From Victivallales bacterium (GTDB lineage: Bacteria > Verrucomicrobiota > Lentisphaeria > Oligosphaerales > Oligosphaeraceae): a stretch of DNA of 34,507 nt. Below the pieces are notes generated by a model. The model saw only the letters and a list, made by a program, of their open reading frames with translations. It ran no database searches and was not told the origin of the DNA. The position numbers and the translations under genes were made by a program. Within the stretch, counting starts at the first letter, position 1. Each line of letters starts with the position of its first letter. Below are positions 3,062 through 23,122 of the stretch, piece after piece. The DNA is taken from contig JAFXUD010000027.1 in assembly GCA_017535315.1 (NCBI GenBank), forward strand, positions 1 to 34,507, given 5' to 3'.

Positions 3062-3790
3062 ATGAAACGCACATTCACCCTTATTGAGCTTCTGGTCGTC
3101 ATCGCCATCATCGCCATTCTGGCGGCCATGCTGTTGCCCGCGTTGAGCAAGGCACGGGAGAAGGCACGTACCATTTCCTGCACCAACAACTCCAAGCAGA
3201 TTATGCTGGGCATCCTGCAATATACAATGGATTTCGAGGACGACCTTCCACTGATGTACTACAAGGTGTCTGACTCCCAGACCATCTACTATGAGACAGG
3301 CAACAGCAATTTCAGGGGTATATACTGGCCATATGCGGTCTATGTGTATGTCAATGACACAAAGCCGTTCATGTGCCCGTCCAATATCGGCTACCACACC
3401 AAATTCTCCTACAGGGGTAATTTCAATTCCGTTGCGGGAATGCCTTATAAAGGATACAACAAGGAAAATGAGAGGAGCGGTCCCGAACGACAATCGCTAA
3501 TCCACCACAAAACCCCCAGCAAAACCTTCTATTTTGGCTGTGGCGACGACTATACCCGCAAGGATATGCCTTTTTGCTACAATCTCAAATCATCCACCTA
3601 CTGGAAGCCCGACGAGAATGGCCGCCAGATATACGGATGCCTCACGCTTGTGCATGGAAACGGTTCCCTCTTCGCCATGCTGGACGGACACGTCGAACCC
3701 CGCAAGGTCGATTTCTTCCGTCAGAATGTGACTCTGAACTCCACTAACGAGGTCAGCCGCTTCTGGGCTTACTACGATCCAGGGAAATAA
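3062..3790 (+). CDS. pseudopilin-like protein (H-X9-DG type), copy 1
   Basis: The protein has 242 residues. MKRT precedes [20 protein letters not shown], a type IV/type II prepilin N-terminal helix with Glu at +5, followed by [15 protein letters not shown]. The remainder is a globular domain with several aromatic residues and cysteines, ending with [15 protein letters not shown]. That segment is the H-X9-DG 'prepilin processing-associated' motif common in Lentisphaerota and Planctomycetes. The residue before the cleavage site is Thr rather than the canonical Gly. It is probably anchored in the inner membrane as a minor pseudopilin of a type II-like secretion system, or retained there unprocessed. 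First gene of a three-gene (+) cluster. No clear Shine-Dalgarno precedes this ATG. Confidence 0.88.
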
Positions 3791-3841
3791 ACAATAATTT
3801 GAGGTAAAAATCACCCCATTATTCAAAGGAGACCTATAGTC

Positions 3842-4567
3842 ATGAAACGCCGATTTACTTTGATTGAGCTTCTAGTTGTCATCGCCATCATCGCCATTCT
3901 GGCGGCTATGTTGCTGCCCGCGTTGAGCAAGGCACGCGAGAAGGCACGCGCCATTTCCTGCACCAATAACTCCAAGCAGATCATGCTCGGAATCCTGCAG
4001 TACGCGATGGACTTCGAGGATAATCTCCCATGCCTTCAGTATAAGCTCTCCAAAGACGATAATCTTTACTACAACGTTGACAACACTAATTTCAACACCA
4101 TTTATTGGTTTAGTGCCGCCTATCTGTATGTCGGCGACGTGAAGCCCTTCATCTGCCCGTCCTGCAGCAGCTACCACACTAAATGCTCCTACCGAGGCGC
4201 CTATTCCACCAAAGCAGCAGGGATGCCATATGTGGCATATCCCAACTTAGAGTATATCAAGCTGATTCCCCAGAGCGCCCACAAAACTCCTTCCCAGACC
4301 TTCTACTTCGGCTGCGGAAACGACTATATCAACAAGGATTTCCCGTTCGCCTACAACATTACCGACTCCACCGCCTACTGGGAGAACGACGCCAATGGCA
4401 GACCCAAGAACGGCTGCCTTACCGTGATGCACAACAACGGCTCCAACTTCGCCATGCTGGATGGCCACGTCGAGGCACGCAAACTCGAATTCTTCAGGCA
4501 GCCTCCGACCCTGAACAGCTCCAACGAGATCAGCCGTTTCTGGGCATATTACAATGCAGGGAAATAA
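3842..4567 (+). CDS. pseudopilin-like protein (H-X9-DG type), copy 2
   Basis: The protein has 241 residues and is a close paralogue of its neighbours. MKRR precedes the FTLIELLVV helix, so Arg sits at -1. [19 protein letters not shown] segment follows, and the C-terminal motif is [15 protein letters not shown] with exactly nine residues between His and DG. A strong AAAGGAG lies 10 bp upstream in the 51-bp gap from copy 1, suggesting co-transcription with independent translation. The first ~40 codons are nearly identical in DNA to copies 1 and 3 while the middle third diverges. This fits a conserved export/assembly head joined to a variable body. Confidence 0.88.
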
Positions 4568-4593
4568 CCCGCACTATCTGAAAGACTACCACC

Positions 4594-5322
4594 ATGAAAC
4601 GCAGATTCACCCTTATTGAGCTTTTGGTCGTCATCGCCATTATCGCCATTCTGGCGGCGATGCTACTTCCCGCCCTCAGCAAGGCACGGGAAAAAGCGCG
4701 TTCCATCGCCTGCACGAACAACTCCAAGCAGATTATGCTTGGCCTTCTGCAATATGCGATGGACCACGAGGACAGCTGGCCCTACACCTCGTACACTCTT
4801 TCTGCTGGCAATTCTCTTTATTACCCCACAGGCAACAACAATTTCATAGGCGCCTACTGGCCCTTTGCCGCCTACATCTATGTAGGGGATGCAAAGCCCT
4901 TCATCTGCCCCTCCAATGACGACGGCTACCACAAGTACTGCTCATACCGCGGATGCTATGGAGGCAAGGGCGGCATGCCATACGTTCCATACGGCGCAGC
5001 CAACGGCTCAGCATACGCGCCGCAAAGCGCGCACAAGACCCCTTCGCAGACCTTCTATTTCGGTTGTGGCAACAACTACTCCAGGAAGAATATGCCCTTT
5101 GCCTATTCCCCAAATTATTATGAAACCACCTACTGGATAGACGATGACGAGGGACGCCCCATCAATGGCTGCCTGACAAACAGGCACGGAGGCGGCTCCA
5201 ACTTCGGAATGCTCGACGGACATGTCGAAAACAGGAAGGTCGAATTCTACCGCCAGAAATCCACCATGGACTCCAATACAGAGGCTGCCCGCTTCTGGGC
5301 ACACTACACGGCAGGCAAATAA
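4594..5322 (+). CDS. pseudopilin-like protein (H-X9-DG type), copy 3
   Basis: The protein has 242 residues: MKRR plus the [20 protein letters not shown] helix, then [17 protein letters not shown], a Tyr/Gly-rich body and [15 protein letters not shown] near the end. Architecture and length match copies 1 and 2, from which it is separated by only 26 bp with no strong ribosome site. A good intrinsic terminator (5344-5373) follows, closing the three-gene unit. Function beyond a predicted pseudopilin role is unknown. Confidence 0.88.
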
Positions 5323-5343
5323 CCCTGTTAAATCCCTTCCTCG

Positions 5344-5373
5344 GCCCCTTGCTTAAGGCAAGGGGCTTTTTTT
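5344..5373 (+). terminator. intrinsic terminator of the (+) pseudopilin cluster
   Basis: A 9-bp perfect stem, gccccttgc (5344-5352) with gcaaggggc (5358-5366), has a 5-nt loop and seven Ts immediately after. Confidence 0.92.
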
Positions 5374-5439
5374 CTAGGAGGAGAAGGATAAACGAACTAA
5401 ATGACGCTAGAAGAAAAAAAACGTATCCTGTATTCTGCT

Positions 5440-5480
5440 CTAGTCAATCTAGTCAATCTAGTTAATCTAGTCAATCTAGA
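5440..5480. repeat. CTAG nonamer repeat overlapping a gene end
   Basis: There are four and a half 9-bp units (ctagtcaat, ctagtcaat, ctagttaat, ctagtcaat, ctaga). The array includes the stop codon of the minus-strand HAD gene (5471-5473). Reverse-complemented units match the ctagattgc units at 21345-21395. Confidence 0.85.
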
Positions 5481-6034
5481 CCTTGAATTACCCCCTCCAG
5501 CCACTCCGCGTTCTGGAACATTTGTGCGTTCCAGCCATGCTTCTGGGCTGCCTCGACCAAATCGAGGCGGTCATCGACATAGATGTCGGGCTTGCCAAAG
5601 CGCTGTTCAAAGGCCTCGAACATTTTCGGGGATGGCTTCCAGGCGCCGACGTCAAAGCTGTAGATGCCTGGGTAGTTTGCCGCAGAGGGGAAACGCTGCC
5701 TAAAACCCTTCAGATGGGCGGGCGATATGTCCGAAAAAAAGGCAACCTGAACGCCGCTGGCTGAGAGTTTTGCCAGCAACGACTCCATGCCAGGCACGGG
5801 TTGAAGGAGGATTGAATCAAAGACTGCGCGGATATGTTCTTCGCTCCAACCTGGAGTGAATGCCTTGAGGTCATGGAAAAACATCTCGTCGCTGACTTCG
5901 CCCCATTCGACACGACGCTGGAGCTCGCGCATTTCAGGCGTGAAACCATCGGTGAGCCCCAAGGCACGCGGAAAGGCGAGGGTATCTATGAAGACTGAGA
6001 CGTTTCCAATGTCAACGGCTATCGTTTTTATCAT
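5471..6034 (-). CDS. HAD-superfamily hydrolase (subfamily IA-like)
   Basis: The 187-residue cytosolic phosphatase-like protein shows the four HAD motifs: nucleophile Asp8 in VDIGNVSVF, Ser101 in FFSDIS, Lys133 in WKPSPK, and Asp154-Asp155 in IYVDDRLD. In motif I the usual second Asp of DxD is replaced (DIGNV). The same variant occurs in the 'DLGNV' YihX-type sugar-phosphatase branch. The helical cap between motifs I and II is short. The last codons and stop lie inside the CTAG nonamer repeat at 5440-5480, so the C-terminus may vary. It lies downstream of three minus-strand pseudopilin-type genes, 16 bp after the nearest. Substrate unknown. Confidence 0.85.
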   Translation of the reverse strand: MIKTIAVDIGNVSVFIDTLAFPRALGLTDGFTPEMRELQRRVEWGEVSDEMFFHDLKAFTPGWSEEHIRAVFDSILLQPVPGMESLLAKLSASGVQVAFFSDISPAHLKGFRQRFPSAANYPGIYSFDVGAWKPSPKMFEAFEQRFGKPDIYVDDRLDLVEAAQKHGWNAQMFQNAEWLEGVIQGLD

Positions 6035-6050
6035 CTACCACTCAGTCAAA

Positions 6051-6791
6051 CTACTTGTTCCAGTTGATAAAGGCTTCATTCACCACATGCCAGGGGTATG
6101 ATGTGCTCGAACGGTCGGCCGCTTGCCAGACCTGCCCCGTCATACCCGCGACTTCAACGGGGCCAATATCGGAATCGACAACCTTCCAGTTTGCGACATG
6201 GCCATCGATATAGCCGCAGTTGGCGGTATCGTTATGCACTTTCTTCATGCAATAGTATTGCCTGCTGAGGATGTAAGGGGTTCCACCGCCGCCCCACTTG
6301 CTGCCAAGGACCAACGTATCGGACGGATGCTTGAAAAGAGCGCGGGATTTGGGGTTGTAAAACATGCTGCCGTAGTCTTTCGAGAGGTTAAAGCCAACAG
6401 GGGTACCATAGTTGGTGCCATAAATATCCGTTTGATTGGACGGGCACTTGTACGGTGCGAAATCGCCTACGTATGGGTAGATGAAGTTTGGCCAGCCGTA
6501 GTACCAACGTCCATTAGAGGGATGCTTGCAGAAAGCGGTGTTGGATGAGATGGGGGCTTCGCTGTTGTTGACCCACGAGCAGTTTGTCCCAATGAACATG
6601 TCGTCATACTCGTCGGCATACATCACTTCCGCCAGACAAAGCTGTTTGAGGTTGGAGGCGCAGGAGATGGAGCGTGCCTTCTCGCGCGCCTTGCTCAGGG
6701 CAGGCAACAGCATTGCAGCCAAAATGGCGATAATGGCTATCACCACCAGCAGTTCAATCAATGTAAATGTAAATTCCACTAGTTTTTTCAT
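6051..6791 (-). CDS. pseudopilin-like protein (H-X9-DG type), copy 4
   Basis: The protein has 246 residues. MKKLVEFT precedes the FTLIELLVV helix (Thr at -1), followed by [31 protein letters not shown]. The C-terminal motif is [14 protein letters not shown] (nine residues between His and DG). The conserved cysteines in [19 protein letters not shown] and NCGY could form disulphides if the body is periplasmic. The ATG at 6791 is preferred over an in-frame one at 6821 because AAGGAG sits 9 bp upstream. This belongs to the second subgroup (with copies 5 and 6), distinct from copies 1-3. Confidence 0.88.
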
Positions 6792-6829
6792 ATACGAGTT
6801 CTCCTTGGAATATGAAATCACCTCTGAAT

Positions 6830-7378
6830 TCAGAGTCCAACCGCCTTTCCAGCAATCATCTCGGCCATGTCGGCGATGGCCTTATCGTAGAGACCGATGA
6901 GTTCATCCACATCATTTCCACCCCAGGCATACTTTTGTGAAAATACGAAGGTTTTACAAGGGCCATTAGCCCCCTTGGAAGAGCTGTTCAGGATGCAATT
7001 CGCATTGACATTGAGGGTGTTGTCCGCATCCAGTTCAAACTGATGAATCTGCACATAAACGGAATAATTCGGAGCCTCCTTGCTTCCTGTGGAACGCAAC
7101 TGAAGGTCTGCTGACAGGGAGTTCTGAATCATCCTCCTAAAATTCTGCGCCCATTGATGCCCTTTCAGCGAACCGATGGTGTGCTTGTTGACACGCACCG
7201 TGATGCTGTGCCTGTCCAGATACTCTGGCAACTCGATGCCCGAAACGCTCACCAGGGCATTGTACTGCTTGGAGGCACTCGCATCAGGACATAGAATGTA
7301 GGTGGAGGTGACCGAACGGGACACAGAGATACAGCCCACTAGCAAAGCCATCCAGATGTAACAGAAAACTTTCTTCAT
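6830..7378 (-). CDS. PqiC/YmbA-like lipoprotein (ABC-transport auxiliary, DUF330 type)
   Basis: The 182-residue protein starts [16 protein letters not shown], a lipoprotein signal with the lipobox LVGC. The mature part has [37 protein letters not shown] and LSADL. These match the PqiC/YmbA family (outer-membrane lipoproteins working with MCE proteins in lipid transport) in order and spacing. No PqiA/PqiB/MCE gene is in the window; the gene sits alone between two pseudopilin genes. The ATG at 7378 lacks a Shine-Dalgarno and lies 15 bp after the upstream stop, so translation is probably coupled; an in-frame TTG at 7393 is less likely. The family call is from motif pattern and is moderately sure. 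Confidence 0.7.
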
Positions 7379-7393
7379 AACAGTGTAAAACAA

Positions 7394-8128
7394 CTACCGA
7401 GCCCAGTTGATGAAGGCTTCATCAACAACGTGTACGGAATAGGAGGGGTCATCTTGGTTAGGAGCAGGCCAGGTGGCATCGTCCCGTCCTGCAATCTTGA
7501 TGGTTCCGATGGGGCCCGAAACCACCTTCCAGTTCGCGACATGCCCATCCACATATCCGCAGTTGGCGGTATCGTTGTGGACTTTCTTCATGGCATAATA
7601 TTGGGTCGAAAGAATATAAGGGGTACCGCCACCGCCACCCTTCTCGCTGAGAAGCAGCGTCTCAGCAGGATGCTTCAGAAGAGCACGGGCCTTGGGCGTA
7701 AAGAAGAGCTTGCCATATTCAGACGTGGTGTGGCCGACAGTCGTCCCGTAGTTGGTTCCATACCAGTCCAGCTGATTAGAGGGGCACCTATACGGACCGA
7801 AATCCCCTACGTAAGGGTAGATGAAATTGGGCCAGCCGTAAAACCAGGTGTCCCTCGAACCCCATTTGCAAAATGTCGTGTTAGACGAGATGGGTGCCAC
7901 ATCGTTGTTGACCCAGCCCTTGCAGTTAGTCCCGATGAACATGTCGTCATACTCGTCAGCATACATCACTTCCGCCAGGCAGAGTTGCTTTAGGTTAGAA
8001 GCGCAGGAGATGCTGCGCGCCTTCTCGCGAGCCTTGCTCAACGCTGGCAACAGCATCGCCGCCAAGATGGCAATGATGGCAATAACCACCAGCAATTCAA
8101 TGAGAGTAAATACCACTAGCTTTTTCAT
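7394..8128 (-). CDS. pseudopilin-like protein (H-X9-DG type), copy 5
   Basis: The protein has 244 residues. MKKLVV precedes [16 protein letters not shown] (Val at -1), then [31 protein letters not shown], a [23 protein letters not shown] segment shared with copies 4 and 6, and [24 protein letters not shown] lies 8 bp before the ATG. It is about as similar to copy 6 as a recent duplicate, sharing GPIGTIK and DDPSY near the C-terminus. Confidence 0.88.
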
Positions 8129-8155
8129 GGTTGTGCTCCTAAGATATTAAACTCG

Positions 8156-8905
8156 TTACCGATTCCAGTTGATGAAAGCATCATCGACGACGTGTACGGC
8201 ATAGGAAGGATCATCTTGGTTGGGAGCAGACCAGGTGGCATCCTCGCGCCCTGCAACCTTGATGGTTCCGATGGGACCCGAAACCACCTTCCAGTTTGCA
8301 ACGTGTCCATCCACGTAGCCGCAGTTGGCGGTGTCGTTGTGTACTTTCTTCATGCAATAGTATGTGGGTTGGAGGATATAAGGCGTACCGCCCCCGCCGC
8401 CCTTCTCGCTGAGAATCAAGGTGTCCGCAGGATGCTTCAGAAGCGCACGGGCCTTGGGAGTGTAAAACAACTTGCCAAATTCAGACCAGGGATGGTGGCC
8501 GACAGCCGTCCCGTAATTGGTTCCATACCAGTCCTGCTGATTGGAGGGGCACTTGTAGGGGCCGAAGTCACCAACATAGGGGTAGATGAAGTTGGGCCAG
8601 CCGTAGAACCAGGTATTTTCCTTTGCTTGCCATTTGCAAAACTTCGTGTTGGACGGGATGGGGGCCACATTGCTGTTGACCCAACCACTGCAGTTGGTGC
8701 CGATGAACATGTCGTCCATTTCATCCGCATACATCACCTCCGCCAGGCAGAGCTGCTTCAGATTGGAGGCACAGGAGATGCTACGCGCCTTCTCGCGCGC
8801 CTTGCTCAACGCTGGCAACAGCATCGCCGCCAGAATGGCGATAATCGCTATCACCACCAGCAGTTCTATGAGAGTAAACATCACCAGATTCTTTATATTT
8901 TTCAT
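8156..8905 (-). CDS. pseudopilin-like protein (H-X9-DG type), copy 6
   Basis: The protein has 249 residues and is the first gene of the minus-strand cluster. MKNIKNLVM precedes the FTLIELLVV helix (Met at -1); the body and [14 protein letters not shown] motif are nearly the same as in copy 5. AAGGAG precedes the ATG. It is transcribed divergently from the His/Pro-rich gene at 9105, probably from a promoter in the AT-rich gap 8906-9104. Confidence 0.88.
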
Positions 8906-21398: not shown

Positions 21399-22052
21399 TT
21401 ATTCAAAAGGCTTCATGATTTCGTTGCCGAACTCCACACTACCTGGCTTTTTCTCAAAGTCGAGAAGCATGACGAAGCGCTGCGGACGCTTGTCATTGCC
21501 GAGGTATGCGATGCCCGCATGGACTTTGGAGCGCGCCTTCAGGGTATCCGTGTCCAACTTGATTTGCGTCAGCTCATTCTTCAGTGCATTGACCTTGACG
21601 AAGCTGAGGACACTCACGATAAGTAAGATGGCGTTGAGCGCAAGCAAAACAAACAGCAGGGGACTGGTGCCGCCACTGGAAGCAGGGGCTCCAGCCGCCA
21701 CAAAAGCGGGCGCGGGCGCAGGAGTGGCTGGCTTTGCCGCCGCTGGCTGCGCAGGGGCTTTTGCCGCAGCAGGTTGTGCGGCGGGCTTCGCCGCCCCCAC
21801 TGGTGGACGCGGCCCCGTCATACCAGGCTTGCCAAGGCCAGGTTTGCCCATTCCAGGTTTGCCAAGGCCAGGCTTGCCCATCCCTGGCTTGCCAAGGCCA
21901 GGCTTCGGAGCCGCTGGCTTGGCGACCTCTTCTGCTGGCGGATTCTCGACAGGGGCCTCCTCTTGCTGAGCGTTATTCTCCGCATTCTCCTGGGCCTTTT
22001 CCTGGGGTTCGTCAAAAATCGACAAGACATCATCCAAGTTGTTGTCAGCCAT
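21399..22052 (-). CDS. GKPG-repeat single-pass membrane protein, unknown function
   Basis: The 217-residue protein starts with an acidic Gln/Glu-rich segment (DVLSIFDEPQEKAQENAENN). It continues with GLGKPGM/GMGKPGL repeats, six in a row from about residue 52, and then an Ala/Pro-rich linker. One transmembrane helix follows (SPLLFVLLALNAILLIVSVLSFV) and then a short coiled-coil-like segment (ALKNELTQIKLDTDTLKARS) before a ~40-residue C-terminal domain. The architecture is cytoplasmic low-complexity arm, TM, periplasmic tail. I do not recognise a family. AGGAG is 8 bp before the ATG; a structured 162-bp element lies just upstream. Confidence 0.75.
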   Translation of the reverse strand: MADNNLDDVLSIFDEPQEKAQENAENNAQQEEAPVENPPAEEVAKPAAPKPGLGKPGMGKPGLGKPGMGKPGLGKPGMTGPRPPVGAAKPAAQPAAAKAPAQPAAAKPATPAPAPAFVAAGAPASSGGTSPLLFVLLALNAILLIVSVLSFVKVNALKNELTQIKLDTDTLKARSKVHAGIAYLGNDKRPQRFVMLLDFEKKPGSVEFGNEIMKPFE

Positions 22053-22110: not shown

Positions 22111-22272
22111 TTAAGAGGCAATTTCAAAACTAACGCGAAATGCGCTAAAAGATGGGCGCAGTGGCTAAGGCAACGGCTCGAAGCCGCACTTTCGTGCGGC
22201 GAGAGGTGTTGCCAACGCCAATGTGTTCATGTTGACGCGCATTTCGATGATAGTTTTGAAATTGCCTCTTAA
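22111..22272. mobile_element. 162-bp nested inverted-repeat element (MITE or structured RNA)
   Basis: The perfect 22-bp terminal inverted repeats 22111-22132 and 22251-22272 begin and end with TTAA. Inside, 22136-22145 pairs with 22237-22246, ggcaac (22169-22174) with gttgcc (22208-22213), and a central stem 22183-22189 pairs with 22194-22200 around a TTTC loop. No open reading frame of note is inside. The nesting would make one long hairpin. The element lies in the 338-bp gap upstream of the GKPG-repeat gene. Confidence 0.65.
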
Positions 22273-22320
22273 TGTAACATCGTTTTCGTTTTTTACCATT
22301 GATAGTACCTAAAGTAATAG

Positions 22321-22371
22321 CAAAACGAGCGCGTAACCAGGTGCTTTATGCCTGATTACGCGCTCGTTTTG
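22321..22371 (-). terminator. 21-bp hairpin after pseudopilin copy 7
   Basis: The arms 22321-22341 and 22351-22371 pair over 21 bp with one mismatch around a 9-nt loop. It follows the stop of the minus-strand pseudopilin by 19 bp. No strong U-tract is present. Confidence 0.6.
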
Positions 22372-22390
22372 AAATTAAATACCTATTTGT

Positions 22391-23122
22391 TCAAGGCGAC
22401 ACTGCAATCTCTGCCCCGTCCTTGCAGGCATAGATGGCTCTTTTATTCTCATTCCAGGCAACGTACTCGACCCACCATATTTCCGCCAGTTCGCTAACAG
22501 ACTTGATGGACTGGACATGGCCGTCCAGCATCATCAAATTGCAGGCGCCATTGCCGTGGGCATTCATGTTGAAATACCCTTTATCACTATTGACTGCGGT
22601 GCGCGCAACTTCGAATTGATAATTAAATCCGATACGCCAACTGTCCCCCAGAAGGACAAAACTGGCAGGGGCCTTCGTCAGCTTCGTAGGCAGAAAGTAA
22701 TCTACTTTGGAACTCGAATCATCGGGATTGTGCGGGGCACGTAAACCTACTTGTCCAAAGCCGTTGGGACGGCCATTACTCTGAGGGGAGCCGTACACCC
22801 TCTGCTTATTAATGAGAGCATAGGGTTCATTTGCTGGGCAGAAGGTCTCCTTGCACTCCAATACACTCTTGCTGGAAAGATACCCATCCTGAACAAAGGC
22901 GTCTGTCCAGCAGGTACTCTGCTTATAGCACTCGCAGAGAATGCCATGGTAGTCATCAATGTAGAGGGTATGAGCAAGGGAACATTGCTTAAGGTTGTTG
23001 GTGCAGGTAATGGCACGCGCCTTCGCTCGAGCCTTGGCCAGCGCGGGCAATAGCATGGCCGCCAGAATGGCAATGATGGCGATAACGACCAGTAATTCAA
23101 TCAGTGTAAACAAGCGTTTCAT
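22391..23122 (-). CDS. pseudopilin-like protein, copy 7 (divergent, H-X10-DG)
   Basis: The protein has 243 residues. MKRL precedes the [20 protein letters not shown] helix (Leu at -1), then [35 protein letters not shown]. The body differs from copies 1-6, with a Cys-rich segment ([21 protein letters not shown]). The C-terminal motif reads [15 protein letters not shown], with ten rather than nine residues between His and DG. A GGGAG lies 8 bp before the ATG. It stands alone, far from the clusters at 3-9 kb, and probably belongs to a separate subfamily. Likely inner-membrane anchored pseudopilin-like protein. Confidence 0.85.

Follow-up and report, generated by a model that had tools for sequence, protein, structure and literature searches.

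Type II prokaryotic MITEs, such as QMITE1 and QMITE2 of Coxiella and Chunjie of Geobacter, grade from full-length to strongly deleted copies (PMC10969869). The palindromic element described here shares with these families its short, non-coding form, terminal repeats, target duplications and intergenic location, as well as a deletion gradient, stable stem-loops and a similarity to insertion sequences that is confined to the ends (PMC10969869); unlike them, it belongs to a set in which the ends are common to several unrelated hairpin cores, in genera of one class. ERIC and Correia elements are likewise intergenic and imperfectly palindromic, 100-200 bp in length, and also occur in internally deleted forms (PMC10969869 and general knowledge), although their ends and target appear to be different. 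The closest resemblance on the side of a probable parent is to IS1182/IS5-like insertion sequences encoding DUF772 and DDE_Tnp_1 domains, which have the ends GAGGTAATTTCAAAAG and GAGCCAATTTCAAAAG and generate 4-bp duplications, whereas the MITE has no gene. A literature search, with most subscription journals outside its scope, returned no description of MITEs in Lentisphaerae or Victivallales, nor of a family with these ends. The element represents a new family within a familiar kind, the type II MITEs, and it comes with both an empty site and a probable parent. A palindrome that had lacked an explanation can now be read as an insertion whose empty site is known, and a transposase family can be named as its candidate mobiliser.

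The element lies in a contig of a gut Victivallales genome (4.9 Mb in 96 contigs, 95.6% completeness), of which the whole stretch analysed, 34,507 nucleotides in length, is referred to as the window. The complete MITE occupies positions 22115-22268 on the plus strand (154 bp), its ends being the points at which 30 aligned copies diverge; the same boundaries are fixed by duplications around 69 copies and by the empty site. The left terminal inverted repeat (GAGGCAATTTCAAAACTA; 22115-22132, plus strand) is the perfect reverse complement of the right (22251-22268, minus strand), so that 18 bp are perfectly paired in the window copy, the family consensus being 16 bp (GAGGTAATTTCAAAAC). Reading inward, most copies have CTATCATC at the right end and CTAGCGC at the left. 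Between the repeats lies a nested inverted-repeat core (22136-22246, plus strand; arms 22136-22179 and 22203-22246). TTAA flanks the element at 22111-22114 and 22269-22272, and this is a 4-bp target duplication, palindromic by chance and not a specific target, which adds 4 bp to the 18-bp inverted repeat and makes it read as 22 bp. Hence the perfect 22-bp terminal repeats reported in an earlier note on this DNA are present (TTAAGAGGCAATTTCAAAACTA at 22111-22132 and its complement at 22251-22272), but its element of 162 bp with TTAA ends is too long, the outermost 4 bp being duplication. The note also placed the element upstream of a GKPG-repeat membrane protein gene and saw no coding potential in it, and both observations agree with ours: both neighbouring genes are on the minus strand, the element lying upstream of the GKPG-repeat gene (21399-22052) at a distance of 62 bp from its start codon, and the window's ORF list, from which coding potential was judged, contains no ORF of at least 80 aa inside the 154 bp, the sole ORF of that size touching the element covering just its left 19 bp.

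Direct evidence of insertion in the window genome comes from a second genome of the same genus (G001, RGIG3631), in which the orthologous site is empty and retains one TTAA (L340). Upstream of the GKPG-repeat orthologue this genome reads ...GGCTTAATGTAACAT..., where the window reads CTTAA-element-TTAATGTAACAT; the right-hand TTAA is further identified by a survey of flanking duplications. Exact 4-bp direct repeats surround 36 of the 69 copies with paired ends, compared with about 1 in shifted controls, and 67 of 133 copies when all core types are pooled. The reconstructed targets have the symmetrical consensus WnWY-TnnA-RWnW. The TTAA or TA target proposed earlier does not apply to the family: what is duplicated is 4 bp of variable sequence with a TnnA bias, and TTAA is simply the version at the window copy.

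Copy counts rest on sequence searches of the host genome, which recovered about 39 near-full-length copies, mostly 84-94% identical. When aligned, these match across exactly 154 bp and have unrelated flanks, and the 154-bp copies diverge from their consensus by 5.4% on average. The end motif GAGGCAATTTCAAAAC occurs 228 times with up to two mismatches, against once for its reversed control, and internally deleted forms, 33-112 bp long, account for many of these occurrences. Under a simple ORF rule, the 63 testable copies include 55 that are located between ORFs, against 14% of random positions. The family is what a MITE is expected to be: non-coding and shorter than 500 bp, bounded by terminal inverted repeats, dispersed in many copies and flanked by duplications of fixed length. 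The search of the genome and its relatives suggested by the earlier note, for multiple copies with target duplications, thus yielded both. There is one local cluster, three full-length and one 48-bp copy lying inside 1.3 kb at G000:C22:6600-7950 (L128 2620-3950). Within the window, a second hairpin at about 22313 or 22315 to 22377, downstream of the gene at 22391-23122, contains an inverted repeat and aligns in matching orientation with a 53-bp derivative (score 22.5; shuffle maximum 14.5); it is probably a decayed, deleted family member, older than the intact copy, that has lost its outer GAGG.

Autonomous elements of 1.36-1.40 kb, with the GAGGTAATTTCAAAAG and GAGCCAATTTCAAAAG ends and 4-bp duplications, are present in other Lentisphaeria genomes and encode an IS1182/IS5-like DUF772+DDE transposase of about 377 aa. 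In G026, an element of 1390 bp is bounded by perfect 19-bp ends (GAGGTAATTTCAAAAGTCT) and codes for a 377-aa protein in which DUF772 and DDE_Tnp_1 domains are combined, and a protein search found relatives of this protein in 45 of 198 genomes of the class. In six of these (G187, G009, G189, G059, G105 and G077) the ends are GAGGTAATTTCAAAAG and GAGCCAATTTCAAAA[G/C/A] or near variants, the relative in G077 carrying GAGGCAATTGCAAAAG, and copies in G187 and G105 are flanked by exact 4-bp duplications. G055 holds nine copies of a more distant relative, which has GAGCCTTTTGCAAAAG ends; seven of the nine have exact 4-bp duplications, and the exact duplication is missing at the remaining two and at the G026 element. 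The MITE agrees with the autonomous elements at 15 of 16 terminal bases and differs from them in subterminal sequence. Ends and duplication length are common to the MITE and to autonomous elements of other genomes, and the interior is not. The NCBIfam families nearest to the transposase are IS1182 and IS5, and it falls below the cut-off of both, with 101.4 bits against the IS1182 model (NF033551; cut-off 270) and 77 against IS5_4 (cut-off 140), so it is labelled only IS1182/IS5-like and the parent is placed in a group of its own.

The reading of the element as a MITE, one of two offered by the earlier note, is upheld by multiple copies, 4-bp duplications, an empty orthologous site and insertion sequences with the same ends. 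The number of copies and their ends, the length of the duplication, the bias of the target, the empty site, and the autonomous elements of relatives, with the same ends and duplication length, are all observed, and we consider it highly probable that this is a type II MITE which retains of an insertion sequence nothing but the ends that transposase binds, and which is moved in trans by an IS1182/IS5-like DDE transposase. Acting in trans, such a transposase would bring the two GAGGTAATTTCAAAAC ends together and cut them, and the MITE would then insert into AT-rich intergenic DNA at WnWY-TnnA-RWnW, so that 4 bp of target, in the window TTAA, would be duplicated on both sides. Palindromic structure, intergenic location and about 100 or more ends per genome might instead recall REP-like hairpins, which a REP-associated tyrosine (Y1) transposase would move. 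Such transposases are not known to leave target duplications; here the 4-bp duplications are clear, and the enzyme encoded between matching ends is a DDE enzyme rather than Y1, which makes that origin scarcely credible.

Among the 198 genomes searched, no copy of the transposase was found in the host genome (G000), its two same-genus relatives (G001, G002) or G012, so the mobiliser of the 154-bp MITE is inferred, by comparison of sequences, from ends and duplication length and not from co-occurrence. The family looks orphaned in these four draft assemblies, of a kind that can lose insertion sequences, and this fits the mean divergence of its copies. Searches around unpaired or selected ends revealed no transposon at about 56 further loci in G000, G001, G002 and G071, and 20 loci in G012 contained MITEs only. 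DDE_Tnp_1 matches in G000 and G002 were rejected as the mobiliser, being IS1634- or IS4-like, and the one with measurable ends has different ends. Another DDE transposase with similar ends might still be present, unassembled, in the host genome, since insertion sequences often fall into assembly gaps and this assembly is fragmented and incomplete; a single 152-bp element of the type found in G012, with an AATT duplication, could also be taken in its favour. However, searches with DDE_Tnp_1 and with the identified transposase detected nothing with these ends in G000-G002, and copies lying on average about 5% from consensus suggest an old burst, so we think this unlikely. The transposase-coding elements that most probably move the MITE seem to remain only in other genomes of the class; the enzyme may have been present in an ancestor, or gained by transfer, and later lost.

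The 154-bp form is found in the host genome and in both same-genus genomes, RGIG3631 and RGIG3456 (G002), each from goat rumen, and is absent from the 57 other genomes of the class that were searched. Ends of the form GAGGTAATT[T/G]CAAAAC also frame unrelated cores in other Victivallales and in more distant Lentisphaeria. RGIG2574 (G012; Victivallales, goat jejunum) has about 400 end motifs, and at the loci read these mostly enclose a core of 152 bp or 191 bp; G071, of another family, has about 20, of a third core type, and further cores with the shared ends are present in G002, G011, G024 and G028. The named genomes that match an extended end motif are all Victivallales assemblies, from the gut of goat and buffalo, and elements with the shared ends are concentrated in Victivallales of the ruminant gut. 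The 152-bp core of the G012 type, noted above in the host genome, occurs there once (G000:C66:20643-20794; L336 2144-2295), which suggests that it arrived by transfer between gut species. Carriage by phage is unsupported, the 23-bp end having no match among viral contigs and the 16-bp end 49, approximately the chance level by our own estimate. Non-standard cores are possible, as at L333 2411-2607 (G002:C734), where the same ends frame a tandem array of CTATCGAAGCCGCTGG units. Near 2489 of L335 (G002:C835), and at L145 and L148, cores or neighbouring sequence consist of hairpins of the CCACAGATTATCGCAGATTAGCACAG type, which may be an independent repeat that was enclosed by MITE ends or taken up next to them.

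The nested stem pairs perceived in the earlier note resolve into one nested hairpin. As DNA, the window element folds at -63.5 kcal/mol, where shuffled sequences average -25.0 (z -12.1) and none of 200 is equally good, and its core stripped of the terminal repeats still gives z -8.8. As RNA, it gives z -14.0 on the plus strand (-106 kcal/mol) and z -12.1 on the minus strand (-89 kcal/mol). A fold of this stability, stronger on the plus strand, on which all four fixed G-U pairs of the consensus also lie, would be consistent with the note's second proposal of a structured RNA, that is, a regulatory RNA or attenuator upstream of the GKPG-repeat gene with its pairing under selection. Yet copies occur at many unrelated loci, the element is missing from the orthologous site in the sister genome, and the flanking genes are on the minus strand, whose transcript folds less well. 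An Rfam search with the window element returned no match. When 42 copies of the 154-bp form are aligned and the four positions with consensus G-T left out, single changes giving G-U number 47 on the plus strand and 48 on the minus strand (the latter being changes to A-C on the plus strand), so pairs are preferentially kept on neither, where a selected transcript should unbalance the two. We therefore judge an RNA function very improbable. End position 10 changes from T to G on both arms jointly in nine copies, as for an end subfamily. The surroundings of the window element yielded no pattern of a sigma-70 promoter or an intrinsic terminator; from its position 62 bp upstream, the element could alter expression of the GKPG-repeat gene.

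For the type II MITE, the long hairpin is probably a trace of how cores are born and shrink, by inverted duplication and snap-back template switching, and not of an RNA function. Of 12 core types folded without their ends, 11 surpass shuffled sequence in stability (z -3.8 to -13.4), and one, from G002, does not (z 0.3). The small derivatives include near-perfect snap-backs of the left arm, for example GAGGTAATTTCAAAACTAGCGCGAAATGCGCTAGTTTTGAAATTACCTC, and these could arise by template switching at GCGC. An identical 50-bp derivative is present at different sites in two genomes, at one of them with an exact duplication, which indicates that internally deleted forms are probably mobile themselves. 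It is conceivable, though doubtful, that one set of 16-bp ends was repeatedly fitted, in separate lineages, to new and unrelated hairpin cores because long self-complementarity is needed or favoured, for instance if a single-stranded hairpin or a snap-back intermediate of replication gives rise to new elements and helps them to spread. Shared ends over varied hairpin cores across the Lentisphaeria offer a natural series in which the birth and shrinkage of hairpin MITEs can be followed.

Elsewhere in the window, positions 3062-8905 encode a group of clustered paralogues, type IV pilin-like proteins whose N-terminal segments (32 protein letters) are almost the same, and the DNA of the pilin-like N-terminal segment in the 22391-23122 gene has dozens of matches in relatives.
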